Positions 19,174-38,079 of a stretch of DNA of 64,000 nucleotides are shown in pieces. The notes under the pieces were generated by a model. The model worked only from the letters and a program-made list of their open reading frames with translations, did no database searches and was not told the origin of the DNA. Source of the DNA: Bryobacterales bacterium KBS 96 (GTDB taxonomy: Bacteria; Acidobacteriota; Terriglobia; Bryobacterales; Bryobacteraceae); NCBI GenBank assembly GCA_000381625.1, contig KB906767.1:5261357-5325356 (forward strand). The letters are read 5' to 3'. The position numbers were made by a program, and so were the translations under genes. Numbering within the stretch: the stretch's first letter is position 1; every line of letters starts with the position of its first letter.

Positions 19174-19234
19174 AGCTAGCGTCCCTGTGTGGCGGAGCGA
19201 AGCAGGATTAGTGATAAGTTGATGTAGTGATAAG

Positions 19235-20856: not shown

Positions 20857-22044
20857 TTAGGCAGACGCAGCAGCCCTCGTAATCACTGGGGCCGAACGTG
20901 ACCGCACCACGGCTGTCTGTACCGCCTCGATGACATCCTGAGTGTCTGCTTCGGACATTTTCGGGTAAAGCGGGAGGGAAACGAGACCGCGATATAGCTT
21001 TTCAGCGACCGGAAATTCCTTAGTTCGGTATCCGAAGACCTCGCGGTAAAAAGAGTGCCGGTGTACCGGGATGAAGTGCACACTGCAGCCGATCTCGGCT
21101 GTCGCGAGCTCGGCAATGAAGCTACAGCGATCCAGCTTCCCGTTTCCGTCCAGTTGTACGGGATAGAGGTGATAGACATGAGACCGGTCATCACGACGAA
21201 CAGGGCAGTGGACTTCTGGAAGATTGGCGAACGCCGTATCGTAAGTTGCGGCAATTTCCTGCCTCCGCCGGATGAAGTTGTCAAGGCGGTGCAGTTGGTG
21301 AATGCCAATGCTCGCCTGGATATCCGTCATGTTGTATTTATATCCGGCATAGCGAACGTCGTACTCCCATCCTGCGCCGCGGGTATAACGTTTCCATGCA
21401 TCGCGTGTCATTCCGTGCAGCGAGAGCAGGCGCATGCGCCCGGCGAGTTCGGGATCCGCGGTGGTCACCATACCTCCTTCCCCGGTAGTCAAGTTCTTTG
21501 TTGCATAGAAGCTAAATGCCACTGCGTGGCCGTGCGTGCCGATTTTCTTCCCGCGGTACAGCGCTCCTGCGGCGTGCGCGGCGTCCTCCACAACAGCTAG
21601 TCTATGCTGGACACCGATGTCGAGAATTTCGTCTAATTCGCAAGCTTGGCCTGCATAATGCACTGGCATGATTGCTCGCGTCCGGGGCGTGATCGCCCGC
21701 CTTACGCATGCTGGATCGATTTGGAAATCCGGCTTGACATCAACCAGAACGGGTTTCGCTCCCAGATGCACGACAACGTTTGCGGTCGCACAGAACGTCA
21801 TTGTCGGCAGAATCACTTCGTCTCCCTGGCCAATTCCTAGAGCTGTAAGCGCGACGTGCAGACCGGCAGTGCAGGAACTTACTGCCACAGCGTGAGCGCA
21901 GCCGACATAAGCGGCGAATTCCTCTTCGAACCGCTTCACTTTTGGCCCAGTTGTGATCCAACCACTCCGCATGCTATCGGCGACCTCGGCAATCTCTTCC
22001 TCACCGATGCTAGGCAAACAAAACGGCAAATACGTTTTTCGCAT
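20857..22044 (-). CDS. DegT/DnrJ/EryC1/StrS-family sugar aminotransferase (first copy)
   Basis: This 395-aa PLP enzyme has SSCTAGLHVALTALGIGQGDEVILPTMTFCATANVV (56-91), VVEDAAHAAGA (151-161) and the PLP lysine in FSFYATKNLTTGEGGMV (K183). The family transfers an amino group to keto-sugars on nucleotide carriers during polysaccharide building-block synthesis. With the SDR gene downstream it could form a dehydratase/aminotransferase pair (4-keto to 4-amino sugar), which is an inference from adjacency. It lies 18 nt after the epimerase gene and in the same orientation. It differs clearly from the second DegT protein at 23158-24282, so the two probably have different substrates. Confidence 0.9.
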   Translation of the reverse strand: MRKTYLPFCLPSIGEEEIAEVADSMRSGWITTGPKVKRFEEEFAAYVGCAHAVAVSSCTAGLHVALTALGIGQGDEVILPTMTFCATANVVVHLGAKPVLVDVKPDFQIDPACVRRAITPRTRAIMPVHYAGQACELDEILDIGVQHRLAVVEDAAHAAGALYRGKKIGTHGHAVAFSFYATKNLTTGEGGMVTTADPELAGRMRLLSLHGMTRDAWKRYTRGAGWEYDVRYAGYKYNMTDIQASIGIHQLHRLDNFIRRRQEIAATYDTAFANLPEVHCPVRRDDRSHVYHLYPVQLDGNGKLDRCSFIAELATAEIGCSVHFIPVHRHSFYREVFGYRTKEFPVAEKLYRGLVSLPLYPKMSEADTQDVIEAVQTAVVRSRSAPVITRAAASA

Positions 22045-22062: not shown

Positions 22063-23142
22063 CTAACCCACTGCCTCTGCGAGAGCCAAGGCAATCTTTC
22101 GCGAAGCAGTGCCGTCGCCGTATGGATTTGCTTCAATTCCCGTGCTTCCCCACGCGGCATTCACTGCTTCAACTATCGAATCCACTGAGACCGGGGGCGC
22201 CAGCCGGTTCCACCCCAGCGCCACCGACTCGACCCATTCCGTCTCCTCGCGCACGGTTACACACGGCACGCGATGAAAAAACGCCTCCTTCTGCAAGCCT
22301 CCGGAATCTGTCACAACCAGGCCGGCGTTCACTGTAAGTTGCATCATGGGCAAGTAGCCCACCGGACCGCTCACATGAACGTTGCTTGCTGCCTTCCATC
22401 CGTTGATTAACCTTCGGGTCCGGGGGTGGACCAGGAAAACAACCTGTCTGGTAGTAGCAATGGTATTTAGTGAATCGAGCAAATATCGCAGCCGGCATGG
22501 TTCGTCTGTGTTCTCTGCACGATGAATGGTCGCGACTACATACTGCTTTCTGGAAAGCGGCAGATTCGCGATGCAGCCATTAGTGGAAGTCAGCAAGGAC
22601 CGATACTGGAGAGCCGCGTCCAGCATTACGTCACCTACGACGTGAATGCGGTCGCCTGCAATACCTTCTCTCATCAGGTTGTCCCGTGAATTCGCTGTGG
22701 GAGCGAATAGCAGATCGGACAATGTGTCCGTCACTACCCGGTTCACCTCTTCGGGCATTCTGCGATTAAAGGATCGCAACCCCGCTTCGACATGCGCGAT
22801 CGGGCGTTGAAGTTTGGCAGCTACGATGGCGGCCGCCAACGTTGAATTGGTGTCGCCAAACACAAGAATCCAGTCGGGCCTACAGGAGAGAATAGGCGTC
22901 TCGAGGGCTGCTATCATTCGCGCCGTCTGGCTAGCATGGCTTCCGGACCCGATGCCGAGATTGACATCGGGCTTTCTGATGGCAAGTTCTTCAAAAAACA
23001 GATCGGACATTTCCGGATCGTAGTGCTGCCCGGTATGAACCAGAATCTCCCGTAAACCGGCGTTTGCAAGAGCGCAACTTACTGGTCCTGCCTTGATAAA
23101 CTGTGGTCTCGCTCCGACAACGGTGAGAACCACAGGTTTCAT
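22063..23142 (-). CDS. UDP-N-acetylglucosamine 2-epimerase-family protein (WecB/WbpI-like)
   Basis: From the ATG at 23142 the protein is 359 aa, beginning MKPVVLTVVGARPQFIKAGPV. It has HTGQHYDPEMSDLFF, HVEAGLRSFNRRMPEEVNR, HVVGDVMLDAAL, ATIHRAENTD and DSGGLQKEAFFHRVPCVTVREETEW. These are the signature blocks of non-hydrolysing UDP-HexNAc 2-epimerases, including the catalytic His/Glu region. The family interconverts UDP-GlcNAc and UDP-ManNAc, and WbpI-type members act on the diacetamido-uronic acid. With WbpB/D- and WbpE-like genes directly upstream, the WbpI role is the better guess. A TTG start at 23157 is also open. Confidence 0.88.
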   Translation of the reverse strand: MKPVVLTVVGARPQFIKAGPVSCALANAGLREILVHTGQHYDPEMSDLFFEELAIRKPDVNLGIGSGSHASQTARMIAALETPILSCRPDWILVFGDTNSTLAAAIVAAKLQRPIAHVEAGLRSFNRRMPEEVNRVVTDTLSDLLFAPTANSRDNLMREGIAGDRIHVVGDVMLDAALQYRSLLTSTNGCIANLPLSRKQYVVATIHRAENTDEPCRLRYLLDSLNTIATTRQVVFLVHPRTRRLINGWKAASNVHVSGPVGYLPMMQLTVNAGLVVTDSGGLQKEAFFHRVPCVTVREETEWVESVALGWNRLAPPVSVDSIVEAVNAAWGSTGIEANPYGDGTASRKIALALAEAVG

Positions 23143-23157
23143 AATCTGTCTCAGCAA

Positions 23158-24282
23158 TCAGTTGGCGGTGGCGGCAATTGCAGATGGCATCCATGCCAGC
23201 ACGCTATCCGCCACGTAGGCCAGCATGTCAGCACTGAGTTCGGGATAGACCGGCAACGCGAGTACTTCTTGGGCAGCGGCTTCAGCTTCCGGGAAACAGC
23301 CATTCCTAATCCCGAGATACGCGAAGCACGGCTGTAAATGCATCGGAAGCGGATAATAGATCTCACAGCCAATCTGCTTAGCCTTCAACCAATCGAGTAA
23401 CTCGTCGCGATTCTTTAGTCGAACGACGTATTGGTTGTAGATGCTGCAGGCGTTGGCAGCAATGTATGGAACACCGATATGGGAGCCGCCAAATCGGGCG
23501 TTGTAGTATGCAGCATTCCGGCGGCGTGCGTCATGCCACCAGTCGAGGCGGCGTAATTTTACCAGCAGGATGGCAGCCTGAATTGCGTCGAGTCTGAAAT
23601 TTCCGCCCACATAGTGGTGAAAGTACTTCGACTGGGCGCCGTGGTTGCGAAGCGTTACCAAGCGCCGGTGCAGCGCGGGGTCGTTCGTGACGACCATGCC
23701 GCCGTCTCCGGCTGCACCCAGATTTTTGCTCGGAAAGAAACTGAAACAGCCCGCAGTCCCGATGGCGCCGGCACTGCGCCCCTTGTAAGTTGCCCCGATT
23801 GCTTGGGCCGCATCCTCAACCACTGCCAACCCGTGCTCTTCGGCGATTGCCAGGATCGGGTCCATATCGGCCATCTGCCCAAATAGATGAACGGGCACGA
23901 TAGCTCTCGTCTTGCTCGTCACTGCGTCATGTAGCAAGGCCGGATCCAGGTTATATGTTCGCCTGTCGATGTCGACAAAAACCGGCGTGGCGCCAAGACG
24001 GGCGATGCAACCTACCGTCGCGAAAAATGTAAAAGGTGTTGTGATGACCTCATCGCCCGGCCCGATCTGCAGGGCCATCATGGTACTAAGAAGGGCGTCG
24101 GTTCCGCTTGACATCGCCACGGCGAAAGCACATCCGTACTTCGCGGCGACAGCGCGCTCCAGTTCCGTCACGTTCGGGCCACCGATACAAACCTGCGACT
24201 TCAGGACACACGCGACGGCGTCCATAATTTCGTCTTCGATGGTGGCAAACTGCGCCTTTAGATCAAGCAGTGGAACTTGCAA
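23158..24282 (-). CDS. DegT-family aminotransferase (second copy, WbpE-like)
   Basis: This 374-aa PLP enzyme begins MQVPLLDLKAQFATIEDEI and carries SSGTDALLSTMMALQIGPGDEVITTPFTFFATV (58-90), VVEDAAQAIGATYKGR and the PLP lysine in FSFFPSKNLGAAGDGGMVVT (K186). These motifs and the length match WbpE/WlbC, which aminates the 3-keto product made by the Gfo/Idh oxidoreductase WbpB/WlbA. Its neighbour upstream encodes exactly such an oxidoreductase fused to the acetyltransferase that would act next, and a 2-epimerase gene follows, so the context supports this role. Assignment is by motif and context, not by alignment. Confidence 0.88.
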   Translation of the reverse strand: MQVPLLDLKAQFATIEDEIMDAVACVLKSQVCIGGPNVTELERAVAAKYGCAFAVAMSSGTDALLSTMMALQIGPGDEVITTPFTFFATVGCIARLGATPVFVDIDRRTYNLDPALLHDAVTSKTRAIVPVHLFGQMADMDPILAIAEEHGLAVVEDAAQAIGATYKGRSAGAIGTAGCFSFFPSKNLGAAGDGGMVVTNDPALHRRLVTLRNHGAQSKYFHHYVGGNFRLDAIQAAILLVKLRRLDWWHDARRRNAAYYNARFGGSHIGVPYIAANACSIYNQYVVRLKNRDELLDWLKAKQIGCEIYYPLPMHLQPCFAYLGIRNGCFPEAEAAAQEVLALPVYPELSADMLAYVADSVLAWMPSAIAATAN

Positions 24283-24312: not shown

Positions 24313-26010
24313 TCAGCAACTCATGGCGCGATCGGCCTTGAGAGATTGCTTCCACTCGCGATAGGATTTCGTTCCCGTCGCCATGTCTGAGGGGAGCGCA
24401 GCCTCCTCGTCAAGGTCCAGACAGCGGATGATACCGGGCCGGCACTCCTGATATCGCAGCCCGGTTTCCGGACAAACCATCACTCCATCGCGCTCCAGTA
24501 ACCGGTGCCCGTGCCGGCTCATCCATCCTTTTTGGCGAGCGGGATTTCCCGTCATCAAAGCGTAATCCGGAACGTTTCGCGTCACAACGGCCCCCGCGGC
24601 AATAAAGCTGTAGCGGCCGATCTCCACTCCGCACAGGATAGTTGCGTTGGCCCCCACCGTGGCGCCCCGGCGGAGAATAGTGCTCTCGTAGAGGGCGTGG
24701 CGATTGATTTGGGATCTCGGATTGGTGACATTGGTCAGTACGCACGAGGGACCCAGAAAGACGTCGTCTTCAACTATGGTTCCCGTATAGATCGAGACAT
24801 TGTTCTGAACCTTTACGTTGTCGCCGACTCGCACACCCTCGGCGATGTTACAATTCTGGCCGATTACGCAGCCTTTGCCGATTTTGACGTTTTTCATCAC
24901 GTGAGAGAAGTGCCAGATCTTCGTGCCCTCGCCGATTTCGCAGGGCTCATCGACAATCGCAGTCGGATGCACGTAACAGAACGGAGGCGCAACGTACATC
25001 CGCTCCTCCATCGCCGGCGTTCTGTTCGCTCCTGCCGCCGGGACCGTTTCCCTGGAATCCAGCGCTCTCTGACAGGCGGCCAGCACTTTCAGAACCCTCA
25101 GGCCTTCAATGCCATCGCTAAGCGGACGAGTGTGCGAACTCACGCAATTGAGGAAGTGTTGGCACTCGGATCTAAGCGGCTCGCCGCTGTCGATCGGCAC
25201 CGCAACGCCCTCGGCTTTGATGGCTTGCGGGGTCCCGTTCCTCCACGCGATACGGTGCGGATACAACATGAGTTTCTCCCGTGCAGTATCGTCAAACACC
25301 GCCATCTTCTCCGCACCGACGACGACAAGGCGCTGCTCTTTGAAGGGGTTCAACCAGCTCACAAAAATGTGAGCGTGCACACCGCTGGGAAATGCAAACT
25401 CGCTCGTCGTGACATCGGCAACGCTTGCATTCAGATAATGGGCTCCCTGGGAGGTTACCTGGCAAGGTTCCTCATTGATCAGAGACAACATTACCGAGAT
25501 ATCATGCGGCGCGAAGCTCCATAGAATGTTCTCTTCACTCCGGATCTTGCCGATGTTCAGACGATGCGAGTACACATACTGTAACTGTCCCAGCTCGCCT
25601 TCGGCGATAAGGTCCTTGATTTTGATCACCGCGGGATGATACTGCAGGACATGCCCGACCATCAGGATGCGTGAGCCACGCGCTGCGGCGGCAACGAGAT
25701 TTGCTCCCTCATTTGCGTCTAAAGCAAGCGGCTTCTCAACGAATACATGTTTGCCAGCATCAAGCGCTAGCCGCGCCATCCGGTAATGCATTGTCGCCGG
25801 AGTTGCGATAACAACGGCATCGATCTTCCGATCCTGGAGTAGGCTTCGGTATTCGCCTGTAAATGCAACACCAGGGTAATTCGTATGTACGATCTCGGCG
25901 CGCGACTGTTGCTCGTCACAGACAATCTGGAGCGCGCCTAGCTCGGCGAAGTTCCGCACGAGGTGTTTACCCCAATACCCCATTCCCACAACAGCTATCT
26001 TGGGCGTCAT
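24313..26010 (-). CDS. Fusion of Gfo/Idh/MocA sugar dehydrogenase with left-handed beta-helix acetyltransferase (WbpB-WbpD-like)
   Basis: The ATG at 26010 has a strong ribosome site (GGGAGGTAAAG) and gives 565 aa. The longer open frame upstream lacks one. Residues 1-340 are a Gfo/Idh/MocA oxidoreductase: IAVVGMGYWGKHLVRNF (5-21), VVIATPATMHYRMARLAL and the conserved EKP (92-94). After a short linker (about 335-348) comes a hexapeptide-repeat acyltransferase (HPTAIVDEPCEIGEGTKIWHFSHV, GQNCNIAEGVRVGDNVKVQNNVSIY, ANATILCGVEIGRYSFIAAGAVVTRNV) and a 60-residue tail. In the WbpA-B-E-D-I pathway to UDP-ManNAc3NAcA, WbpB oxidises the 3-hydroxyl and WbpD acetylates the 3-amine. Here both are in one chain. 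The WbpA-type 6-dehydrogenase is not in the window. Confidence 0.87.
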   Translation of the reverse strand: MTPKIAVVGMGYWGKHLVRNFAELGALQIVCDEQQSRAEIVHTNYPGVAFTGEYRSLLQDRKIDAVVIATPATMHYRMARLALDAGKHVFVEKPLALDANEGANLVAAAARGSRILMVGHVLQYHPAVIKIKDLIAEGELGQLQYVYSHRLNIGKIRSEENILWSFAPHDISVMLSLINEEPCQVTSQGAHYLNASVADVTTSEFAFPSGVHAHIFVSWLNPFKEQRLVVVGAEKMAVFDDTAREKLMLYPHRIAWRNGTPQAIKAEGVAVPIDSGEPLRSECQHFLNCVSSHTRPLSDGIEGLRVLKVLAACQRALDSRETVPAAGANRTPAMEERMYVAPPFCYVHPTAIVDEPCEIGEGTKIWHFSHVMKNVKIGKGCVIGQNCNIAEGVRVGDNVKVQNNVSIYTGTIVEDDVFLGPSCVLTNVTNPRSQINRHALYESTILRRGATVGANATILCGVEIGRYSFIAAGAVVTRNVPDYALMTGNPARQKGWMSRHGHRLLERDGVMVCPETGLRYQECRPGIIRCLDLDEEAALPSDMATGTKSYREWKQSLKADRAMSC

Positions 26011-26041
26011 CTTTACCTCCCAGTCAAATATTGATCTGCCG

Positions 26042-26755
26042 TCAGCGGGCGTTTGGATCGCGCTTCTCGATCCAGCAGAGGACGTGCGTCCGAAGCAACG
26101 GAAGTAAGTTGAAGAGTGTATAAAAGTGCGGATGTACACGCGTGACTCTACGGCTGATGGGCGGCGCCAGTGTGATATGCCTGCTGTAGGTCATGACGCC
26201 ATTTGGAAACAGTTCCCTCACATGCCTCAGCGGCACGCCCCTTACATCCTGGTTGCTGGGGTTGTTATATACGAAGTCGTACCAGAGTACGCCGCCGGCT
26301 TCGCTGACCCAATTCCACATTCGCGCGGCAAGAGCCACTTGAAATTGGCGATCGATGATGGAAGTGAAGACTGTAGATTGAAGGACTACGTCAAATGAGT
26401 TGGGATCAAAGCGCGCATCCATCGCGTCTCCCGGTATCAGCCGAACTCCGGACGGAAGTATCGCGCGCGCAGTTTCGAGTCTGTCCGGTAGCAAGTCGTT
26501 GCCGGTCATGTTTTCGGGTTGGAAGCCGAGACGTAGAAGGTCGAGCAATGTCCGCCCCGTTCCGCATCCAATTTCGAGTACACGCAAATCACGTACGGCA
26601 GGTGGCCCCCAGTCACGAATCCACTGGTGCAATGCCCGCTCGCGTTCCTGTGTCGACATCAGCACCGAGAGATTTAAGGGATGATATAGCTCGGCATCGC
26701 GCTTTGCGGCGCGCCGCGCATATCGGGCCGCGATGGATGATGCTTCCGGATTCAT
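26042..26755 (-). CDS. Class I SAM-dependent methyltransferase
   Basis: This 237-aa protein has the SAM-binding motif VLEIGCGTGRTLLDLL (about residues 58-73), a following acidic motif (GNDLLPDRLE) and FDVVLQSTVFTSI, typical of small-molecule class I methyltransferases (Methyltransf_11/25 type). In a polysaccharide cluster such genes usually O-methylate a sugar or cap the chain, but the substrate cannot be seen from sequence. The ATG at 26755 lies 4 nt after the upstream glycosyltransferase stop, so it is in the same operon. Confidence 0.85.
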   Translation of the reverse strand: MNPEASSIAARYARRAAKRDAELYHPLNLSVLMSTQERERALHQWIRDWGPPAVRDLRVLEIGCGTGRTLLDLLRLGFQPENMTGNDLLPDRLETARAILPSGVRLIPGDAMDARFDPNSFDVVLQSTVFTSIIDRQFQVALAARMWNWVSEAGGVLWYDFVYNNPSNQDVRGVPLRHVRELFPNGVMTYSRHITLAPPISRRVTRVHPHFYTLFNLLPLLRTHVLCWIEKRDPNAR

Positions 26756-26759
26756 TTGG

Positions 26760-27989
26760 TTAGCTCAGAACCGGTTTCAGAAACTCTCGCGCCAGCACGC
26801 GATAGTCATGCCGGGCAGTTACGTACTGTTTTCCGAGACGGCCCATTGCCGCAAGTCGATCTGGTCCAATGGCCATCAGGGTCATTGCGGCATTGGCGAT
26901 CGCCGACGGGTTTTCCCCCGGCACCGACAGGCCGCAGCCACAGTCGCCGACGATATCGCTTGAGGCATCGATAGCTTGAATGACTGGCTTTTCTGCAATC
27001 ATATAATCCATTAGCTTGTTCGGGCTCACGCCGAATTGAAACAGCGGACTGCGCTTCAGGCTAATGATCATGGCGTCCATGGACCCGATAAGTGCCGGAA
27101 CGGTTCGCCTTGGCACGGACGGGAGAAAATGCACCTCGGCTAAACCAAGTGATTTGGCCAATTGCTGCAGCGAAGGTTTTTCCGGCCCATCCCCTACGAG
27201 CACGAGCGAGACTGCGGTGCTGGCTAGCGCCTCACCGGCCCGGACAACACTGTCCAAGGCGTTAGCCAAACCATGGGCGCCTGCGTATCCGATAAGGAAG
27301 CGGCCCTTTCCCCGAAGGCTTGCAATTAATTTCGCGTGTTCCGCCGGCAGTTCACTCGGCGAAGATTCCCACTCGCTCAAATCGACACCGTTAGGCACGT
27401 AAAGATACTTCTCGGGCGACATTCCACGGCTGACCATGTAGGGCTTCGCATTCGGCAGCATAGATACAACCCAGTCGGCTTCGCGATATGCGAAATCTTC
27501 GGCCCACTGCAGGAGGACTATGAAAGGATGCTTTGCCGACATACCGCTGAGTAACATCGGACTTAACGGCCAAAGATCATGCACTTCGAACATCAGTGTG
27601 GCCGCGGCGCACTTGGCAATCCGGTATGCCGGCACTATGTCCAACGGGTAAGTGGAGGAGGCAATAACGATGTCGGGACGGCAAGCACGAACAATCCACC
27701 TCGTGTATCGCATTACCTGGGCTACGAATGTCAACATATTGGCGACGCGCCGGGCGCCGTTGCCGCGATAGGAAGGCGTGCGTAGCCATAGGTACTGAAT
27801 TCCGTCTAGCACCTCTCGCGAAAGGCCCGCCTCAGTGTGTGGATCGCGTGACCGCGAATGAGCGTGGGATGCAGCCACAATCGTGACGCTATGGCCGGCG
27901 CGCACCCATTCCCTAGCCATGAAAAACGGACGGTACTCCATTCCGTGCCGTAAGGAGCCGGCGTAGTGATTGATAAGAACAATATTCAC
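26760..27989 (-). CDS. Family 4 glycosyltransferase (WbuB-like)
   Basis: The protein proper begins at a GTG (27989): VNIVLINHYAGSLRHGMEYRPFFMAREWVRAGHSVTIVAASHAHSR, 409 aa. The open frame runs 100 codons further upstream into the polymerase gene, and that stretch is not protein-like. It has a GT-B fold with the N-terminal domain up to about 190 and a nucleotide-sugar-binding C-terminal domain (FLIGYAGAHGLANALDSV, LVLVGDGPEKPSLQQLA, SPNKLMDYMIAEKPVI with the conserved acidic and Lys residues). Members such as WbuB add sugars to the undecaprenyl-linked O-unit on the inner face of the membrane. The donor is unknown. No good ribosome site is visible, so the start is uncertain. Confidence 0.82.
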   Translation of the reverse strand: MNIVLINHYAGSLRHGMEYRPFFMAREWVRAGHSVTIVAASHAHSRSRDPHTEAGLSREVLDGIQYLWLRTPSYRGNGARRVANMLTFVAQVMRYTRWIVRACRPDIVIASSTYPLDIVPAYRIAKCAAATLMFEVHDLWPLSPMLLSGMSAKHPFIVLLQWAEDFAYREADWVVSMLPNAKPYMVSRGMSPEKYLYVPNGVDLSEWESSPSELPAEHAKLIASLRGKGRFLIGYAGAHGLANALDSVVRAGEALASTAVSLVLVGDGPEKPSLQQLAKSLGLAEVHFLPSVPRRTVPALIGSMDAMIISLKRSPLFQFGVSPNKLMDYMIAEKPVIQAIDASSDIVGDCGCGLSVPGENPSAIANAAMTLMAIGPDRLAAMGRLGKQYVTARHDYRVLAREFLKPVLS

Positions 27990-28009
27990 GGATATTGCAG
28001 TCCAGACGT

Positions 28010-29269
28010 CTACAAGCTTTCGTGAAGGTAGATCTGCGAAGCCCTTAGCCGTGCGCATTCTTGTATTGACAAGCGTCTCAAGCGATCCGACCATTCCACG
28101 TGTGCTCCGCTCGCTAGCCCATAACCCAAAACAACCCAGCACAGCTTCGATAGCAGCCAGTCCTGCGTTACATTGACTACCAGAACGCAGGTAAATAAGG
28201 CGAAGGGCAGTGCTCCGTCTACGCCCAGCCGACCGCGCCATGCGCTCCAGAAACAGAGAGCCAGGCCCAAAAAGAAAGGAAGCATTCCGCAAACGCCAGT
28301 GCTGGTCGCGACCTCAAGATACAGGTCGTGTGAGTCCCTTCTCGCGAAACTCAATTTCGGATGTTGTGTGCGTCGGCCGAGTTCATATTGACTGTCAACG
28401 AGACCCCAACCGAGAATGGGGCGTTCCAGGAACATACCGTAGAGCGTTGGATACAGCTCTTCGCGGCCCGACATTTGTCCTTCTTCGAGCGTTTCTTCAA
28501 ACCGGCCTCGCGTGGAAGGCGAGGAATAGCAAAGGGCTATTACACCGCCGGCAACTCCCAAAGTAAATAGCAGCCGAATTGCAAATGAACGTGGATTCCA
28601 AGTTCCTGTGGGAACCATCGACATTGCGAGCAAGCCAGCAATCAAGCCAACGATCGCGCCGCGCGATCCCATCTGCACCATCGCAAAACATATCGAAATG
28701 CTGGCGCCAGCCAACAAAATGCGAACAGGCCAGCGCCGGCGGCCAGCAAAACCTAGCCCTATCAAGATCAACAAACCGATGGCCAGATTCGCACTTGCGT
28801 TGTTGGGATTCTCCCCCCACGCTGTAAGTCTCTCCTCCGTTTCCCACCTTCCTAGGCTTGTGGTTCCGAAACCAGCCACCTGGAGGGCCGCGCGGATCAC
28901 ACAACCCGCCGCAATGGCCCACAGCATCATTCGCAGTGTTCGTGAATCTCGTCCTGCATTGTAGATCGTGGCCAGCACCAGCATAGGCTCCAAAATCTGA
29001 AGGATAAGCGCGCTGGACTCGAGGGGATGGTGTGCCCCTCCATAAAGCGTCGCTAGAACTCCGATGTACAGCCAGGCGGCGAAAAGCCACAATCCGCCCG
29101 GCAGTGCCCATGAAGAACCTCTGTCATATATGGCGGCGAACAACATCATAGCTGCCGTTATGGTTGGAACATCGACCGGTATTGGCCGGTTCGGGATGTC
29201 AAATGGGATAGACGCGAGAAACAGGTAGGCCGTCAAACGAAAAACCCGCTCCGAAGTAATACTGGCCAT
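28010..29269 (-). CDS. O-antigen ligase/polymerase family membrane protein (Wzy/WaaL-like)
   Basis: Starting at the ATG at 29269 (GCGAGGT ribosome site) gives 419 aa with about 10-12 hydrophobic segments. A large loop carries the Wzy_C-type motif (GREELYPTLYGMFLERPILGWGLVDSQYELG, SHDLYLEVATSTGVCGMLPF), in which the conserved H and surrounding residues are typical of O-antigen polymerases/ligases. It probably polymerises repeat units on the periplasmic face. The upstream extension of the open frame to 29557 overlaps the flippase gene and was rejected. It follows the flippase and precedes a glycosyltransferase gene, the usual company for a Wzy protein. Confidence 0.84.
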   Translation of the reverse strand: MASITSERVFRLTAYLFLASIPFDIPNRPIPVDVPTITAAMMLFAAIYDRGSSWALPGGLWLFAAWLYIGVLATLYGGAHHPLESSALILQILEPMLVLATIYNAGRDSRTLRMMLWAIAAGCVIRAALQVAGFGTTSLGRWETEERLTAWGENPNNASANLAIGLLILIGLGFAGRRRWPVRILLAGASISICFAMVQMGSRGAIVGLIAGLLAMSMVPTGTWNPRSFAIRLLFTLGVAGGVIALCYSSPSTRGRFEETLEEGQMSGREELYPTLYGMFLERPILGWGLVDSQYELGRRTQHPKLSFARRDSHDLYLEVATSTGVCGMLPFFLGLALCFWSAWRGRLGVDGALPFALFTCVLVVNVTQDWLLSKLCWVVLGYGLASGAHVEWSDRLRRLSIQECARLRASQIYLHESL

Positions 29270-29286
29270 ACCTCGCGTCTTTTTTG

Positions 29287-30855
29287 CTATTGCGTGGCGC
29301 CCAGAGGCCGCGCATATCGTCGTGTCACCGCGCGTACTGTCTCGTTCGCAGTCGACATCATGACAGGTGTCGCGGCCGCAGTTACCGCGTACCCTAGCAC
29401 CAGCGCGACGGCAACTGCTGTGGTCATTCCGGTTGGCGATTGGAAGCCGCCACCGATGCACCAACGGCACAATCCCACGGTCAGTAAACAGGCGCCGATC
29501 GGAAGCCAGAAATCTCTGTAGCTCCAAATCCTGGTGAATTTGTTGTGGAGCGCCCAATCCGTATAGCCGATTTGCACAACTGCTGAGAATCCCTTGGCCA
29601 AAGCAAATGCACTCGCTCCTCCAATCGGCCCAAAAAGCTTAACGCCTGCGACGATCATCGGGATAACAAGTACGACACCCAAGCCCGTGATTGCGAGAGA
29701 GAACCGAATCAATCCAAGAGCGCGCTGTACGTTAAGCGACACCTCCAGGAAGGCGCTAACAAGACTTGCTATTACCAGCACCGCGGCGATGCCCGCGGCG
29801 TGATGCGCTGCTGTCGCGTCCCTGGTCCAGATGCGGATGATGGGGCCCGCGAAAAACACCGTTACGACCGTGACAGGCGCTAACACCACCGTGACCAGTT
29901 GAATACTCTTTGCATAGAGGTCGTTAACGGAGGTTATGTCCTCCAGCGCGGCGTGTTGTGAAAGACGAGGAAACACCGAAGCGCATACGGGCGTGACGAG
30001 CATGTAGAGGCTTGCGGCTAACGTGCACGCGAGCATGTAGTATCCGAAATCAGCCAATTGCAGATACCGCGACAAAATCACTTTATCAGTCTGGTTCAAG
30101 CAGGTCGAAAACAGGCTGACTCCGCTGATGGCAGCCGATAGGCCAAGTGTTGCTTTGAGCATCTGAACCCGAAAGCGCGGCCGCCCGTTTCCTCGTGGCA
30201 ATGAAGACCACAGCGCCACGGCCATGGCGCTAATGGTGACCAGTGTGACTGCAGCCTGCACTAAGCAAAACGCAGTAACCGAGCGGTCAACAAACATCAG
30301 AATGCCGAGGGAAAATGCAACCTTTACGATGGCGCCGCCGCTGTAAATGGTATTCGCTATCAGCGGTTTCTGCAGAGCCATCAATCCGCCGAAGTACAAG
30401 CTTCCGGGCCATTGAAGCGCGATGCTGATAACCAGGCAGATGATCGCGATGCCGAGTGTAGACGCGGATAGCTGGTTGAACCGGAGCCAATTACGCGTCA
30501 GCACGGTAGCAAGCAGCGGTGATGCAGCACAGAGTAAGATTGCCGCTGCCCAATATGCGGCTTCAATCGTACGGAAGAAATCACGAATATTCTGCGCGGC
30601 GCCGGAACGAACGGATTGCATGGCCACTTCGCGACTGGAGGTCGTTGTCAGGCCTACTTCGAGAATTTGCAATACACCCTGCAGGGTGACGAACACACCA
30701 ATGAACCCATAGCCCTCGGGTCCCACTAAATGCATATATATGGGCGCAGCTGCGAAATTCACGAGACCGGCTGCAAGCTTCGAACCCATCGTCACCACGA
30801 CACTCTTTCGGACCGAGGCGGGACTGTTCGTTAAGTCTTGGTTATATTTCGGCAT
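29287..30855 (-). CDS. Polysaccharide flippase, Wzx/MOP family
   Basis: This 522-aa protein has about 14 transmembrane segments spread evenly over its length. It begins with SVRKSVVVTMGSKLAAGLVNFAAAPIYMHLVGPEGYGFIGVFVTLQGVLQILEVGL, which is characteristic of the N-terminus of Wzx/RfbX proteins (the LGPEGYG pattern). The family moves undecaprenyl-linked repeat units across the inner membrane. Its ATG shares the A of the stop of the amidotransferase gene upstream (TAATG), so translation is coupled. With the polymerase and the Wzc-like protein it makes up a Wzx/Wzy-dependent assembly system. Confidence 0.87.
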   Translation of the reverse strand: MPKYNQDLTNSPASVRKSVVVTMGSKLAAGLVNFAAAPIYMHLVGPEGYGFIGVFVTLQGVLQILEVGLTTTSSREVAMQSVRSGAAQNIRDFFRTIEAAYWAAAILLCAASPLLATVLTRNWLRFNQLSASTLGIAIICLVISIALQWPGSLYFGGLMALQKPLIANTIYSGGAIVKVAFSLGILMFVDRSVTAFCLVQAAVTLVTISAMAVALWSSLPRGNGRPRFRVQMLKATLGLSAAISGVSLFSTCLNQTDKVILSRYLQLADFGYYMLACTLAASLYMLVTPVCASVFPRLSQHAALEDITSVNDLYAKSIQLVTVVLAPVTVVTVFFAGPIIRIWTRDATAAHHAAGIAAVLVIASLVSAFLEVSLNVQRALGLIRFSLAITGLGVVLVIPMIVAGVKLFGPIGGASAFALAKGFSAVVQIGYTDWALHNKFTRIWSYRDFWLPIGACLLTVGLCRWCIGGGFQSPTGMTTAVAVALVLGYAVTAAATPVMMSTANETVRAVTRRYARPLGATQ

Positions 30856-32756
30856 TACTGATCCGGCGATATGTTGAAAATGTCAAGCCAACGATCGAAT
30901 ACAAACAAGCGAAATAGCTGCTGACCTGCCTCGTCGGACCTATCGCGCATATCCCACACGGTGGCAGCCAGGCGCCGGACAGGTTCGCGCTCCAGTAATC
31001 GCCACAATGGACGGTCTGACCGTAGCCACAACTGCAATGCCGGCCGCATATATCCTTTCATCCATTTCGATTGCGGGGTTTCAAAACCGAACTTCGTGCG
31101 GCGGAAGAAGACTTTCGGAGGAAGCAGGTTGCGCAGCCCTTGACGAAGCGGCAACTTGGTCCAGCCGTTTCTGTAGAGCAGATCTCCCCGAAACGAGAGC
31201 ACCAGTTCGATCAGCTCATGGTCGAGAAAGGGATACCGACCTTCGATGGAGAACGCCATCGAGTTCCGGTCATCCCATTTGAGAAGCCGCGGAAGAAACA
31301 TTGTCCTGATCTCATAAACTCGTCGGGCACGTTCTTCTAAACTCAGAATGGTTCCGACTAACTCCGGGCGCGACGCGGATTTTGGCCCATTCCCGTTCAA
31401 GCGAATTGAAACGTGAGGTTTACTTCGCGCGCGGTATCGTCGCCATATGATCGGCAGCTGACGTACCATCTCCGAATTGCCGCCGGGCCACAGCGCACCG
31501 ACGAACTGCCCTAGAACTGCGCCGGCCTTTCGCTTTCGGAGTAGTTCGCGAAGGTAGACAAAATACGATGGCCAATACGCCCCGAACAGTTCGTCGCCCC
31601 CTTGACCATTTAGAAGCACGGGCACCTGGGCCAAGCGCGCGAGCCGCGCGATGCAGTAGCTTGCATATATCGACGTGCTGGATACAGGCTCATCATGAAC
31701 CCAGATCAACCGGTCAAGGTCGGCAAGAAACATCTCCGGGCCAGGCGTGTCGAAATGAGCTTCGTGACGAATTCTGGCGAGGACGGCGTTTGCATATTCC
31801 TTCTCATCCAGTCCGTCGCCTGGGAACGTCGACGTAAACGTGTGCAACGGCGTGTTGACGGCGCCGGACAGGTGATTCACCGTGACTGCGATCGAGCTGG
31901 AATCCAAACCGCCGCTTAGCGCACAGCCGACCGGAACGTCGCTGCGCAAATGCAGCGCAACGCATTCTTGAAATTTCTTCGCGAATCCAGCGCTGGCTTC
32001 CCCGAGACTCGCGCCGGCCGCCTGTATCTGTTCGGGAAACCAGTATGCCTCTGACGCACTCATCGTGCGTTGCTGCGCGTCGATACGAACCCAGTGACCG
32101 CCGGGCAGAGGGGCGATGTCGCGGAAAAGCGTACGCGCCGGATCTTCGTAGCCCGTTCGGAGATACTCGGTCGCAGCCGTCGAATCGAATCCAAATTTCA
32201 GTCCTGGCAGATGCCGAAATTGCTTAATCTCAGAGGCGACCGCAATGATGCCACGCCCTCTCCATATGTACACCGGTTTTATGCCCAGACGATCGCGGCA
32301 AACAACTGCCTCGCGGCGTTCGGAATCATAGATGACAAGGCCCCACATTCCCCGGAATCGCTGGAAACAAGCCGAGCCCCAATGAGCGTACGCGGCCAGA
32401 AGAACCTCAGTATCCGTTGCCGATCGAAACCGATGACCAGCCTTCTCCAGTTCCCGCCGCAGCTCAATATAGTTGTACACTTCTCCGTTGTACGTGATCC
32501 AGTAACGGCCGCGGTACTGCATCGGCTGCAGCCCTGCCTTGCTCAGATCGATGATGCTCAATCGGCGGTGCGCCAGCGCGGCGTTCCAGGTTGTTCCGAG
32601 AGGGCCAAACTGAACCGGGGTTATTTGATCAACTGCGAAAAATTCACTGCCGAAGCCATCCGGGCCGCGATAACTCACCTCGTCGCGCATTCGATTCACT
32701 GTCGCAACAGAGCAACGGACGTCGTTCGCTTTAAATACAGCAGCGATGCCACACAT
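30855..32756 (-). CDS. asnB: Asparagine synthase (glutamine-hydrolysing) family protein
   Basis: This 633-aa protein starts MCGIAAVF with the N-terminal Cys2 nucleophile of the class II glutaminase domain. It also has HRRLSIIDLS, YNGEVYNYIELR, and the ATP-pyrophosphatase P-loop SGGLDSS (281-287) of the synthetase domain. AsnB-like proteins in polysaccharide clusters often amidate uronic acids on the sugar chain or precursor rather than make asparagine. With a uronic acid pathway encoded downstream, amidation of that sugar is plausible but inferred. It lies 5 nt after a glycosyltransferase gene, in the same operon. Confidence 0.88.
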   Translation of the reverse strand: MCGIAAVFKANDVRCSVATVNRMRDEVSYRGPDGFGSEFFAVDQITPVQFGPLGTTWNAALAHRRLSIIDLSKAGLQPMQYRGRYWITYNGEVYNYIELRRELEKAGHRFRSATDTEVLLAAYAHWGSACFQRFRGMWGLVIYDSERREAVVCRDRLGIKPVYIWRGRGIIAVASEIKQFRHLPGLKFGFDSTAATEYLRTGYEDPARTLFRDIAPLPGGHWVRIDAQQRTMSASEAYWFPEQIQAAGASLGEASAGFAKKFQECVALHLRSDVPVGCALSGGLDSSSIAVTVNHLSGAVNTPLHTFTSTFPGDGLDEKEYANAVLARIRHEAHFDTPGPEMFLADLDRLIWVHDEPVSSTSIYASYCIARLARLAQVPVLLNGQGGDELFGAYWPSYFVYLRELLRKRKAGAVLGQFVGALWPGGNSEMVRQLPIIWRRYRARSKPHVSIRLNGNGPKSASRPELVGTILSLEERARRVYEIRTMFLPRLLKWDDRNSMAFSIEGRYPFLDHELIELVLSFRGDLLYRNGWTKLPLRQGLRNLLPPKVFFRRTKFGFETPQSKWMKGYMRPALQLWLRSDRPLWRLLEREPVRRLAATVWDMRDRSDEAGQQLFRLFVFDRWLDIFNISPDQ

Positions 32757-32761
32757 TGGAA

Positions 32762-33835
32762 TTACCGTGTTCGTTCGACAGCAACGCCCTGAACTCTCGG
32801 CGAAATCACTGATGCGTTTCGCCGTTCCAAGATTGCCGCGTACAGGCCGGACAACCTCCTGGCGACGTCGTCAAGCGTAAGCTCTTGAGCGCGGATCGCA
32901 TCGGGCCCGTTCGAGCGCTTGCCGTCCCGGATCACCTGGACAATCGCACGCGCGAGCGCATCAGCATTGTATGGACAGATGCCGCCCGGCGACACATTTC
33001 GGAGCCGCTCGGCGACGTCACCGCAAGGCACCGACACAACTGGCAACCCGCTCGCCATAGCTTCTTTCACGATGTTCGGTGACCCTTCATGAATCGAAGT
33101 AACGAGGAGGCAATCGGCTGCATTGAGGGCGAGGGCCACTTCGTCGGCACTGAAACCCGATAAGGTGCGCAGGCGCACCTGCCCGTGCGTTCTCCTCACG
33201 AGTTCCACTGTCCGTCGCGCTAACTCAGGGTTCTTTACCGCAGTGTTGCTTCCTACACTTGCATTGAACAGCACTATCGGGTCGTCAAGTGACCATCCCA
33301 GTTCGCGGCGGCAGTTCTCTTGGCTACGAGGGCGAAAATGGTTCACGTCGACGCCATTCGGCAGAATGACGGCACGTTGCTTGAGCGCTTCCGGTAATGC
33401 GGCGCGCAGGTTGTCACTTTTCACAATGACGCACGTGGCGAAGAGTCCGGCGAATAACCCAAGCCAGCGCGCACCAGCCTCACGCAGACGCCATCGCCAG
33501 CCATCAACTGGCGTGCCAAGAAGGTCATCACCGCAGAATGAAATCACTAGCGGTTTACCGCTCTTGATCAAATCGCCGACCAGCGCAGTTACTGAACCGT
33601 ATAGTGCATGGACCAGAACTGCTTGACTTGTTCGCATTTCACTGCGCAACCTGAGAACGCCTCGCACCACGCCGACTGGCGATGTGCGGTCATCAAGTAT
33701 CCCAACGTACGGCTGCCATCCTCGATTGCACAGTGACTCTATCTGTGCGCTCATAAACACCGAAATCCGTGCCTCCGGCCCGCGGGCGCCTGGGGCCAAC
33801 ATGAATGCGACAGGATGAAATCCGGGTGAGGACAT
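32762..33835 (-). CDS. Family 4 glycosyltransferase
   Basis: This 357-aa GT-B protein has a Rossmann-like N-terminal domain (AVLVHALYGSVTALVGDLIKSGKPLVISFCGDDLLG) and a C-terminal glycosyl-transferase group 1 domain (ILPNGVDVNHFRP, VLFNASVGSNTAVKNPELA, LLVTSIHEGSPNIVKEAMASGLPVVSVPCGDV). The E-x7-E-type motif region (EGSPNIVKEAM) is intact. It most likely adds one sugar of the repeat unit in the cytoplasm. Donor and acceptor are unknown. It lies between the Wzc-like gene and the amidotransferase gene, with gaps of 10 and 5 nt. Confidence 0.87.
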   Translation of the reverse strand: MSSPGFHPVAFMLAPGARGPEARISVFMSAQIESLCNRGWQPYVGILDDRTSPVGVVRGVLRLRSEMRTSQAVLVHALYGSVTALVGDLIKSGKPLVISFCGDDLLGTPVDGWRWRLREAGARWLGLFAGLFATCVIVKSDNLRAALPEALKQRAVILPNGVDVNHFRPRSQENCRRELGWSLDDPIVLFNASVGSNTAVKNPELARRTVELVRRTHGQVRLRTLSGFSADEVALALNAADCLLVTSIHEGSPNIVKEAMASGLPVVSVPCGDVAERLRNVSPGGICPYNADALARAIVQVIRDGKRSNGPDAIRAQELTLDDVARRLSGLYAAILERRNASVISPRVQGVAVERTR

Positions 33836-33845
33836 AGAAAAGACG

Positions 33846-36131
33846 TCAAATGGAATACATCCGATATCCGTAGCGAGTGGCTGGCGAGAACCTTGGATCC
33901 CAATCGTTCAGCACCACTCCAATGACTGGTGTTGAATCATCTTCGAATCGCTGCCGTACCATGTGCAATGCAGATTTTGGCGTCGTCCCGGACCTCCCTA
34001 CAAGAATCACGCTGTCCGCGAGACGGGCGATCACGCGTGCGTCAGGCAGCAGCAGCGCGGGAGGTGTGTCGATGAGGATGAAATCAAATTCTCTGCGGAG
34101 CCGTTCGAGTATAACCGGGAGGTTTTCAGAATAGAGAAGCGTAGTAGCCGTTGCACTGGTGGGGCCTGCCGGGACAATGGATACCGCCGGAACACACGTC
34201 TCATGCACCGCGTCCTTGATGGTAACCGGGTCGAATTTCTCCTCTGAAAGTAGGCTGCTCAACCCCAGCTCATTAGAGACATTGAAAATCTCATGCAAAT
34301 GGGGCCTGTGCATGTCGCCATCGATCAGTAGGACTCGTTTCTTAATTTCTGCTAAAGCTATGCCGAGATTGCTCGCGACGGTCGTTTTGCCTTCGCCAGC
34401 GACGGCACTGGTTAGAACCAGCGCTTGCGGTCGGTGGCCGGACTCAGAAAACAGCAGCGACGCGACCACGTTGCGGAAAGAGGCGGCCGTGAGTGAGGAC
34501 TTGTGTTGGACTGTGATCAGCTCTACTCGCTCCCGAGAAGACTCGGAACCACCAATAATAGGAAAACTCTGCGATGAAGGGATCAAGACGTCCAACGTGG
34601 CCTGTTGCCGAGTGCCCACTGGTGGTTTATGATTTCGCAAAAGTCTGTTATCGGAGATGATGACGCCGAGCTCGGGCGTATTCACGCACACGCTCGCCTC
34701 TCCCGGTTCTTCTAGCCTGGCGTGCACGTGCTCACGGACAAATACGAACACCACTCCGCAAAAGAAGCCGGTTAGCGTTCCAAGTGCCGAACTGAGAGCG
34801 GTTCGGGGTTTATATGGAAGAAGCGGCGGTTCGGCCGGGTCCACCACCCGAATATTGCTAGCTTTCAGTGCGGAAACTATATTCGACTCTTTGACCCGCC
34901 GTAGCATTGAGTCGTAGAGTTCACGGTTCGATTCGACGTCACGTCGAAGAATGCTGTATTGCACGCTAAATCCGGCATCACGATTCACGACCCCTAACTG
35001 ACTTGCATATTGCGCTACCAGCAAGGTTTCCTGGCGTGTCGCCGTTTCATACTCGTCCTGAATGCGCGTGACGACTGCCGCGCGCTCGCGATCCACTGCC
35101 GCCTGAAGCGTTTGTACTTGCGCTTGCAGCCGTTGCATCTTCGGATTCTCAGCTGTGTAAAACATCGCAGATTCAGCCATTTGGCGATGTAACTCGGTAA
35201 GCCGCATCTGATACTCGCGCAGGCTTTGGTCATTCAGGACCTCCGGCAGCGATTCCGCCGGCGCGCTGCGGGACAGCTCGTAACGGGATTGTTTCTCCGC
35301 ACACTCGGCCTGAGCGCGGGTCAATTCCGCTTGCAATTGGCGGAGCTTCTCTTCACTGACAGTACTGCGGTCGGTATTGTACAGCAGTCCTGTACGGGTG
35401 ACATAGGCCTGCAAATTAGCCTCGCTTCGCTCGAGCTTGAGGCGGGTTTCTTGAAGCTTCTTCTCAAGCCATTCGCTAGTGTGCTCGCTCATATTCCACC
35501 GCGCGTCCAGGTTGCTCTGGATGAACTCATTTGCAAGCGTATTCAGGAAGTTCGCCGCCCATCGAGGGTCGGCGGAGTCAAACCAGATGTGCACGACACG
35601 TGTTTGCATCGGCGCGCGCACATCCAGCCTTTGGGCTGCGTCCCGCACGGCCTCGTCCAAACTTGGGCTCTTCAGAGGCATATGCAGTAGATTCCGCCAG
35701 GTACGAAGGCTCGCCGCGTCAGGGGCGGAAGGGTGCCAGTGCAGCTTCGTCAACACACGCGTGATAAGAGCCTTGCTATGAAAGAGCTCGGTCTGCGTCT
35801 TGATGTCTGATAAAGCTTCGTAGGTAATCGGCTCCGGCGTTGTCTCTGTTATGTGAACGTAGTTTGGATTTAGGTTCTCAATCTCAAGCGAGGTTTCCGC
35901 TTTATATATGGGGCGCTGTGCTAGTGCAACTAGCAAACCTGTTACCGTTCCCGCAAATGTTAGAGCAAGCAAGATTTGTTTTCGGCGGCTCGCGATCTGC
36001 AAGTACCGGAGAAGATTTATCGGTTGATAGGAAACAAGTGGTATCTCCGCGCGATGATAGCGCGGCCGTACCGGATCAATTTCGGGTATGAGGACATCTT
36101 CGCCTCGCCTATCGGTAGTCTTACGGAGCAT
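33846..36131 (-). CDS. Wzc-type polysaccharide co-polymerase with bacterial tyrosine kinase domain
   Basis: This 761-aa protein has an N-terminal Wzz domain with a transmembrane helix at about 52-70 (ILLALTFAGTVTGLLVALA). A long periplasmic coiled-coil follows (LQETRLKLERSEANLQAYV, LRQLQAELTRAQAECAEKQ), then a GNVR-like segment and a second helix (about 445-465). The cytoplasmic BY-kinase domain has Walker A SAVAGEGKTT (about 575-584), Walker A' LLIDGDM (about 601-607) and Walker B ILIDTP (about 685-690). The C-terminal tail has only three tyrosines (YGYRMY), fewer than in E. coli Wzc. Such proteins set chain length and couple polymerisation to export. No outer-membrane Wza gene is in the window. 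Confidence 0.9.
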   Translation of the reverse strand: MLRKTTDRRGEDVLIPEIDPVRPRYHRAEIPLVSYQPINLLRYLQIASRRKQILLALTFAGTVTGLLVALAQRPIYKAETSLEIENLNPNYVHITETTPEPITYEALSDIKTQTELFHSKALITRVLTKLHWHPSAPDAASLRTWRNLLHMPLKSPSLDEAVRDAAQRLDVRAPMQTRVVHIWFDSADPRWAANFLNTLANEFIQSNLDARWNMSEHTSEWLEKKLQETRLKLERSEANLQAYVTRTGLLYNTDRSTVSEEKLRQLQAELTRAQAECAEKQSRYELSRSAPAESLPEVLNDQSLREYQMRLTELHRQMAESAMFYTAENPKMQRLQAQVQTLQAAVDRERAAVVTRIQDEYETATRQETLLVAQYASQLGVVNRDAGFSVQYSILRRDVESNRELYDSMLRRVKESNIVSALKASNIRVVDPAEPPLLPYKPRTALSSALGTLTGFFCGVVFVFVREHVHARLEEPGEASVCVNTPELGVIISDNRLLRNHKPPVGTRQQATLDVLIPSSQSFPIIGGSESSRERVELITVQHKSSLTAASFRNVVASLLFSESGHRPQALVLTSAVAGEGKTTVASNLGIALAEIKKRVLLIDGDMHRPHLHEIFNVSNELGLSSLLSEEKFDPVTIKDAVHETCVPAVSIVPAGPTSATATTLLYSENLPVILERLRREFDFILIDTPPALLLPDARVIARLADSVILVGRSGTTPKSALHMVRQRFEDDSTPVIGVVLNDWDPRFSPATRYGYRMYSI

Positions 36132-36446: not shown

Positions 36447-37148
36447 CTATTCCGTCTCTCTATGTTTCTCTGTAATCGGCTGCCGGAAGTCCAATCGAAA
36501 CAATCCCGTCAAAGCACCGGCCGTCTGAAACAAAATCGAAAGATCCTTCCAGAATGTCCATTCGCGGATGTATTCCGTCGCCAGAGCAAGCTTTTCTGGC
36601 AGGACCCACTGGACATAGGCCCCGATTGGGTCGGGTTCCTCGGCAAGGACCTTCTCTTCGTTACGAAAACGCAACGAGGCGAGATCTGTCAGACCGGGAC
36701 AAACAGTCAGAATAAGCTCATAATCGCTGCGGAACATTTCTACATACCGCGGCACTTCCGGCCGGGGACCCACTAAGCTCATATTCCCCGTCAGAACATT
36801 CCACAGTTGCGGGAGTTCATCGAGCTTTGTAGCCCGCAGGAGGCGGCCGATAGGCGTGATCCTCGTATCCCCCGCAACGGTAATGAGTCGCTCCCCTGGG
36901 CGCTGAATCATGGAACGGAATTTCCAGATGCGGAACAGAACGAAGTTCCTGCCCACTCGGGTTTGCGAAAACAGGATCGGCCGCCCTGAGTCTATAAAGA
37001 TCGCAAGTGCGATCAGAGTCATGAGCGGAGCAGCAACGAGCAGCAGAGTTGCACTCCCGATTACATCCATTCCACGCTTGGCAATCTTATCCATGGCTCG
37101 TATTGAATACCGTTCTGCCGACGGCTCGATCACGGCTTTTGTCGGCAC
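36447..37148 (-). CDS. Undecaprenyl-phosphate sugar phosphotransferase (bacterial sugar transferase family)
   Basis: This 233-aa protein is a small initiating transferase of the WbaP/PglC type. One N-terminal hydrophobic segment ([22 protein letters not shown]) is followed by the catalytic region [66 protein letters not shown] (KLDELPQL and the GPRPE motif). It transfers a sugar-1-phosphate from a nucleotide sugar to undecaprenyl phosphate, the first step of repeat-unit assembly. An alternative start at 37094 ([10 protein letters not shown]) would remove 18 residues and is equally plausible, since many family members begin close to this KRxxD motif. Confidence 0.88.
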
Positions 37149-37289: not shown

Positions 37290-37802
37290 CTAAGCCGAGG
37301 TGACCCATGCGGAGTCGATCTGTGCCGATACCGAACGTTGCAGCAGTGTTATCGATACAAGCATTCGCCAGTCGCTCTTTTTTTTGAGTAGAATGCCCTC
37401 GAGTCCCTTAAGCGGGCCCGAGTTTATGCGGATCCGCTGGCCTTCTCGGAGGTATAAACATGGTTCCGTCACGAAACCTGACTCCGAGAGGAGCCGGACG
37501 GCCTCGATTTCCGCCTCGTCTATGGGGGTCGGTTCGTTGCCAAATCCAATGATGGAGACAATTCCAGGTGTTGTAAGAATGGGTAGCCGTTTTTTCATGT
37601 CGAATCGGCAAAACACGTAGCCTGGGAACAATGGCCGATCGGCTTCGACGACTCTGTCCGACCAGCGACAGTGCCGATGATATACCGGCAAGAACTGGTC
37701 AAAGCCCTTGGCTCTAAGCGATAGAGCTACAGTCTTCTCACAATTTGCTCTCGTGCGAACACCGTACCACGGCAATCGCGGCGATTGGTCGTCATTGTGC
37801 AT
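37290..37802 (-). CDS. NusG-like specialised transcription antiterminator (RfaH/UpxY/LoaP type)
   Basis: Starting at the ATG at 37802 with ribosome site AGGTGG gives 170 aa. A GTG three codons upstream is also open. The N-terminal NGN domain reads PWYGVRTRANCEKTVALSLRAKGFDQFLPVYHRH, then RPLFPGYVFCRFDMKKRLPILTTPGIVSIIGF. The C-terminal KOW domain has EGQRIRINSGPLKGLEGILLKKKSDWRMLVSI. NusG paralogs of this size at the head of capsule clusters bind RNA polymerase and let it read through long operons. Here the gene is first in a cluster of about 18.5 kb on one strand, and an ops-like sequence lies 59 nt upstream. It probably controls its own operon. Confidence 0.88.
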   Translation of the reverse strand: MHNDDQSPRLPWYGVRTRANCEKTVALSLRAKGFDQFLPVYHRHCRWSDRVVEADRPLFPGYVFCRFDMKKRLPILTTPGIVSIIGFGNEPTPIDEAEIEAVRLLSESGFVTEPCLYLREGQRIRINSGPLKGLEGILLKKKSDWRMLVSITLLQRSVSAQIDSAWVTSA

Positions 37803-37847
37803 AACGCCCACCTGGGATTGACTGATCGACCCGATATTTGAAATGTG

Positions 37848-37871
37848 AGCCTAGGGGGACAGGCTACCGCC
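37848..37871 (-). promoter_or_regulatory. ops-like element and overlapping hairpin in the leader of the polysaccharide operon
   Basis: Read on the minus strand, 37871-37861 is GGCGGTAGCCT, matching the ops consensus GGCGGTAGNNT at every defined position, including the GC-GGTA-GC mini-hairpin that RfaH recognises in the non-template strand. Immediately downstream, AGCCT (37865-37861) can pair with AGGCT (37852-37848) across an 8-nt C-rich loop. The element is 59 nt before the ATG of the NusG-like gene, correctly oriented for transcription of the cluster. Confidence 0.65.
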
Positions 37872-38079
37872 ACGTCTCTCCCAGTAGCTCGTGGGTCTTG
37901 AACATCTGGGATAGTTCACACTATGTCGGCAGCTCTAATGGGTAACATATGTCAACGAGAAATATAAGCCCCTATTTGACACAAACGAACGTAGAGTGGT
38001 ACTAAAACGTACGTAAGTGACTTGCCGCTGACTATCATCACGAAGGTAGCCAACCTCACGTCTCCACGAAGCGCCTAAC

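Follow-up and report, generated by a model that had tools for sequence, protein, structure and literature searches.

Recruitment of a NusG paralog by an ops element has been treated as mostly a speciality of proteobacterial RfaH, whose contacts to ops are placed late in its evolution (PMC7593976, PMC7819879). In Enterobacteria, ops lies inside the 39-bp JUMPstart sequence; in the E. coli element the loop G4-A7, the pair C3:G8 and the TG at positions 11-12 matter, while RfaH itself reads bases 5 and 6 (PMC5995543). LoaP is a cis-encoded NusG paralog serving long operons, and TaA of Myxococcus is likewise encoded in its target operon, albeit in a different pathway and with an unknown mechanism (PMC7593976). 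According to Saba 2024 (cited in PMC12691694), UpxY of the Bacteroides capsule operons bridges to the DNA duplex upstream. No earlier description of such a system in Acidobacteriota was found in the literature searched, although most subscription papers fell outside that search.

The locus considered here lies in a 64,000-nucleotide stretch of the genome of Bryobacterales bacterium KBS 96 (the window). Its minus strand carries GGCGGTAGCCT at 37861..37871, an exact match to the ops consensus GGCGGTAGNNT, as the initial annotation had claimed; with the TG at positions 11-12 the sequence reads GGCGGTAGCCTG. The eight bases GC-GGTA-GC (37863..37870, minus strand) are predicted to form a mini-hairpin in the non-template strand, with a DNA fold of -2.4 kcal/mol for the 12-mer. 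Its loop bases G4-A7 and the C3:G8 pair are identical to those of E. coli ops, and the formation of the hairpin within a transcription complex is inferred from this identity. The predicted pause dinucleotide, TG, occupies 37860..37861, in keeping with a preference for T and G at positions 10 and 11 of the related elements described below. An upstream half, TGGGAG (37878..37883), conforms to TGKRAS at a fixed spacing, so that the whole may be written as a putative composite recruitment element, TGGGAG-AGACGTG-GCGGTAGC-CTG (37860..37883, minus strand), which fits the pattern TGKRAS-N7-GC(loop)GC-NTG. The GGCGGTAGNNTG core, the GC-GGTA-GC hairpin, the TG pause and the leader position in a polysaccharide operon are thus all held in common with the ops/RfaH system.

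The gene behind this element, 58 nt from the core, encodes a NusG paralog of 170 residues (37290..37802, minus strand; 65.3 bits against the Pfam NusG profile), for which the ATG at 37802, preceded by AGGTGGG, is the preferred start and a GTG at 37811 a possible one. It scores 102.3 bits against the NCBIfam UpxY profile NF033644, only just above the cut-off of 100, and fails both RfaH equivalog profiles (73.4 against a cut-off of 144.5, and 55.2 against 124); judged by these profile scores, the factor is a UpxY-family protein rather than an RfaH. Its nearest named relatives belong to the Bryobacteraceae/Bryobacterales (65% and 58% identity). An AlphaFold2 model built with 40 homologs (mean pLDDT 85.5) contains an NGN domain followed by a beta-barrel KOW domain, and Foldseek matches it to NusG and RfaH; one of the matches is the structure of RfaH bound to the ops-paused complex (8pen), with an rmsd of 1.5 across 96 columns. 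The C-terminal domain is therefore predicted to be NusG-like and not the helical hairpin of RfaH, with the caveat that AlphaFold2 may miss a fold switch. A comparison with the DNA-contact residues of RfaH had been proposed, and it shows no conservation: the base-reading residues H20, R23, Q24 and R73 are replaced by S, A, K and P in the window paralog (the RfaH sequence used for numbering is consistent with the residues that PMC5995543 names). DNA recognition cannot, therefore, be identical to that of RfaH. The paralog shares with UpxY of the Bacteroides capsule operons its NF033644 family and its place as first gene of the operon that it presumably controls; no UpxZ-like gene was seen adjoining it, although no dedicated search was made.

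The paralog heads a run of same-strand polysaccharide genes extending to position 18463, which bears out the assertion that a NusG-like gene just downstream of the motif leads about 18.5 kb of such genes; that the paralog serves this operon is inferred from its position. The run comprises, all on the minus strand, an initiating sugar transferase (36447..37148; PF02397, 2.5e-55), a Wzz/Wzc-type chain-length determinant and tyrosine autokinase (33846..36131; GNVR, AAA_31 and Wzz domains), a glycosyltransferase (32762..33835), an asparagine-synthase-like amidotransferase (30855..32756), a Wzx-type flippase (29287..30855), a Wzy/O-antigen ligase-type protein (28010..29557; PF04932), a second glycosyltransferase (26760..28292), a methyltransferase (26042..26755), an oxidoreductase and hexapeptide transferase (24313..26139), two DegT aminotransferases (23158..24282 and 20857..22044) on either side of a UDP-GlcNAc 2-epimerase (22063..23157), an NAD-dependent sugar epimerase/dehydratase (19235..20758) and a final ORF without a Pfam match (18463..19251). 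Immediately upstream of the leader, a fragment of an IS5-like transposase (38080-38667, minus strand; E 3.7e-8) suggests a past insertion near the operon promoter. Within the window leader itself we found no convincing promoter upstream of the element and no terminator-like site between the element and the paralog gene.

On the evidence of the window alone, the core match is not significant. GGCGGTAGCCT is the sole match to GGCGGTAGNNT in the window, 0.33 are expected by chance, and at least one occurs in 29 of 100 shuffles, as would suit a chance match or a dispersed repeat travelling with such loci. The whole genome (6.69 Mb) gives a different picture. It holds 33 matches, fewer than the 121 of the reversed control, so the motif is not a dispersed repeat; 28 of them lie inside ORFs, and three of the remaining five precede NusG paralogs. 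Indeed, three of the four NusG paralogs of this genome have GGCGGTAGNNT within 350 nt upstream in the sense orientation. From the genome density, the chance of this for any given gene is about 9e-4. By simple arithmetic the chance for three of four is about 3e-9 with the prompting site included; setting that site aside leaves two hits among the three other paralogs, for which the figure is about 2e-6. The enrichment recurs strongly in independent genomes (see below), and we accordingly give the chance or repeat explanation almost no credence.

The individual leaders of this genome vary. The third paralog (genome position 2618182) is preceded by tandem elements, GGCGGTAGTTTATTGCGGTAGCTATG, without the upstream half, and tandem arrangement was also seen in a relative's leader (L232), where two full composite elements lie at -111 and -73. 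At genome position 4203105 the ops core ATGGCGGTAGCC overlaps the presumed start codon of a NusG paralog, such that site and coding start coincide. The fourth paralog (genome position 5499632) has no recognisable leader element. The two other intergenic sites, in front of genes judged by eye to be CbiM-like and YdcF-like, have no upstream half and probably arose by chance.

A search of related genomes had been put forward as a check of conservation. From genomes of the same order we collected 400 nt upstream of 46 UpxY-like paralogs, and an unbiased count of 8-mers, made without any prior motif, returned GCGGTAGC as the commonest word (12 of 46 leaders). Widening the set to class and phylum level brought it to 164 leaders and revealed a more general element, consisting of TGKRAS, 7 nt, a GC-loop-GC DNA hairpin with a GNA or GNNA loop, and the TG pause dinucleotide. 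It occurs in 82 of the 164 leaders, as compared to 1.0 in dinucleotide shuffles. A second, independent set, made up of 66 additional leaders taken from named acidobacterial genomes, gave 33 composites (shuffled, 0.1) and 22 matches to GGCGGTAGNNT (shuffled, 0.05; antisense, none), while none of 10 housekeeping nusG leaders carried the composite. The motif is thus kept in front of the orthologous NusG-like genes of related Acidobacteriota, in the sense orientation and far above shuffled expectation, which confirms that it is real and not a product of chance. The ops-type core is a single loop form within a larger, composite element.

The spacing between TGKRAS and the stem is rigid (7 nt in 74 of 87 leaders, 8 nt in 12). 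The loops include the tetraloops GGTA, GGCA, GGAA, GATA, GTGA and GTAA and the triloops GAA and GGA, the latter two being the commonest class-wide forms and dominant outside the family of the window. About half of the UpxY-like genes have no recognisable element, and outside the class, in other acidobacterial classes, most lack it. In those other classes, TCGAGTGGA recurs upstream of four UpxY-like genes. A subgroup of triloop leaders (L123, L135, L138, L178, L183 and L201) shares a further GGGTTAGGTCACAAA-like sequence, also conserved, that immediately precedes the element. The small hairpin that had been described downstream of the window motif is present (AGCCT/AGGCT, 37865-37848) but is not conserved, occurring in 3 of 119 leaders against 1.7 expected.

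Since the element precedes polysaccharide operons both with and without NusG genes, it might be an ordinary DNA-binding site for a regulator of these genes, or a part of their promoters. Such a site is difficult to reconcile with the strict orientation, there being no antisense composite in the 230 leaders of the two sets. The element is also not palindromic over its full length, its core is identical to ops, and it lies near the gene start; two further leaders of this genome have, by eye, a promoter-like sequence ahead of it. We consider a regulator or promoter site very improbable. A sigma-70 scan upstream of the element gave at least 9 matching positions in 15 of 118 leaders where 9 leaders are expected, the excess sitting at 10-12 matches (8 leaders against 1.2 expected).

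The position of the TG dinucleotide supplies a further constraint. With the opening G of the stem taken as position 1, T is found at position 10 in 74% of triloop and 70% of tetraloop elements, and G at position 11 in 56% and 57%, respectively. These positions correspond to 11 and 12 of ops, the pause-inducing TG of E. coli. The spacer behind the stem absorbs the difference in loop length and leaves the TG register unchanged, as is expected of a signal read from a polymerase that has stopped at a fixed base.

This register bears on the possibility that the signal acts as RNA, the paralog binding a leader hairpin once this has left the polymerase, as LoaP does with the dfn hairpin. LoaP shows that a NusG paralog can recognise RNA (PMC12691694), and GC-GNNA-GC could fold as an RNA hairpin. 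However, the acidobacterial signal has the architecture of an ops pause, the fixed TG register fits a paused polymerase, the tetraloops GGTA, GGCA and GATA are not of the GNRA type, and the upstream block displays no base-pair covariation. The window leader folds no better as RNA than its shuffles (z -1.14), and a search of 17 leaders, including that of the window, against Rfam up to E = 1 returned no match, so that membership of JUMPstart as an Rfam family is not supported for these leaders. It seems unlikely, therefore, that RNA is the form in which the signal is read, though this is the alternative to which we would still leave some room. An upstream half acting as an RNA pause hairpin (CTGT..ACAG), which fits many triloop leaders by eye, was rejected, as 59 sequences revealed no covariation and the tetraloop leaders remain unpaired.

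The bases that vary among the acidobacterial loops are those equivalent to ops bases 5 and 6, the very ones that RfaH reads, which leads to the question as to whether loops and paralogs form cognate pairs. Loop class tracks the protein tree, with 4 changes between tetraloops and the rest (17.2 when shuffled) and 15 changes for all three loop groups (38.4 when shuffled). Such tracking fits cognate pairs, but is equally expected of neighbours that are inherited together. Genomes with two elements have differing loops in four of six cases. In a column scan of GAA against GGA loops, H20, T68, A71 and T72 rank high; the pairwise test of loop against contact residues was not significant (p 0.2-0.4), and the tree offers too few independent pairs. 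Covariation of the loop with the RfaH contact residues is, on these alignments, only suggestive.

We also sought sites that lack an adjacent NusG gene, using a sequence model built from 41 NusG-linked tetraloop elements from which the sites of the window's own genome had been left out. In that genome (6.69 Mb) the two best hits were the leader at 4203091 (rank 1) and the window element (rank 2), both of which precede NusG paralogs, a ranking that also contradicts a chance origin. No orphan element was found there, the model scan yielding cis sites only. Applied to 41 genomes of the family, the model also matched sites that are not followed by a NusG gene. Of ten such orphan sites tested, eight precede polysaccharide genes, the product being an initiating sugar transferase in four cases, a polysaccharide export protein in two, and a Wzz-type protein and a polysaccharide deacetylase in one each. 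The remaining two precede a haem-oxygenase-like protein and a product without a Pfam match. As the model is blind to the operons behind orphan sites, their association with polysaccharide genes constitutes independent support. Several of these genomes (G011, G012, G014, G019 and G024) encode a paralog without the composite in its own leader. The orphan sites suggest that in relatives the factor works in trans as well, as RfaH does, with several operons per genome. The initial annotation had inferred a self-regulating, ops-guided antiterminator outside Proteobacteria, an inference that holds for the most part; the factor gene is indeed the first behind its own site here and the motif is conserved and sense-only, but the element is longer and more variable than ops, the factor is of the UpxY family, and the system in relatives is not only self-regulating.

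A comparison with E. coli extends to the upstream half. The JUMPstart sequence was confirmed between galF and rfbB. Where the acidobacterial element has CTGTAAGT, JUMPstart has CTGTAAAG (K-12 rfb), CTGTTGAG (waaQ) and CTAAAAAG (wza). Of the three K-12 sites (L325 5139, 29424; L326 10184), rfb and waaQ, but not wza, have an upstream half that shares its register and a TGTWRA-type sequence with the acidobacterial block. This hints at an upstream block with a common role, perhaps in contacting the upstream duplex as reported for UpxY, although with three sites it is no more than a lead. No such composite element was present in the two Bacteroidota UpxY leaders examined, nor in six leaders of plasmid-borne loci of Bacteroidota and Alphaproteobacteria that encode RfaH or UpxY in cis.

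The conservation of the element, its orientation, rigid spacing and fixed pause register, and its link to NusG paralogs and polysaccharide operons are established by these comparisons. We think it probable that the element recruits the UpxY-family paralog during transcription, in the manner of ops and RfaH, for processivity through the polysaccharide operon; recruitment, pausing, the DNA hairpin, binding and antitermination are all inferred, and there are no expression or binding data. RNA polymerase would pause at the TG of the element, and within the bubble the exposed non-template strand would fold as a small GC-loop-GC hairpin, whose loop the paralog would read, probably helped by the TGGGA block, which lies about 20 bp upstream of the RNA 3' end. 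The paralog would then bind polymerase and stay on it, rendering it processive through the long operon. Here the factor gene is the first behind its own site, while in relatives the factor may act in trans as well. The differences from ops/RfaH lie in the factor, a UpxY-family protein whose gene follows its own site and whose C-terminal domain is predicted to be a NusG-like beta-barrel, and in its reading, the RfaH residues being missing and the loops varied.

A broader reading, which we offer tentatively and rate as somewhat less than an even prospect, is that ops belongs, as a single word, to an older code: varied mini-hairpin loops (GGTA, GGCA, GGAA, GATA, GTGA, GAA and GGA) would address acidobacterial NusG paralogs, different paralogs of one genome would read different loops and so keep polysaccharide operons apart, and the TGKRAS upstream-duplex block would share the register of the E. 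coli JUMPstart. In any event, the findings suggest that the switching of long sugar-coat operons in the manner of ops and RfaH also occurs in Acidobacteria, in a more varied form, with the same core and pause register serving another subfamily of NusG proteins in a different phylum. The natural loop variants, at the bases that RfaH reads, provide many paralog-site pairs with which to study how NusG-type factors choose their operons. Such pairs predict which operons each factor serves, and the varied sites may possibly offer orthogonal processivity switches.
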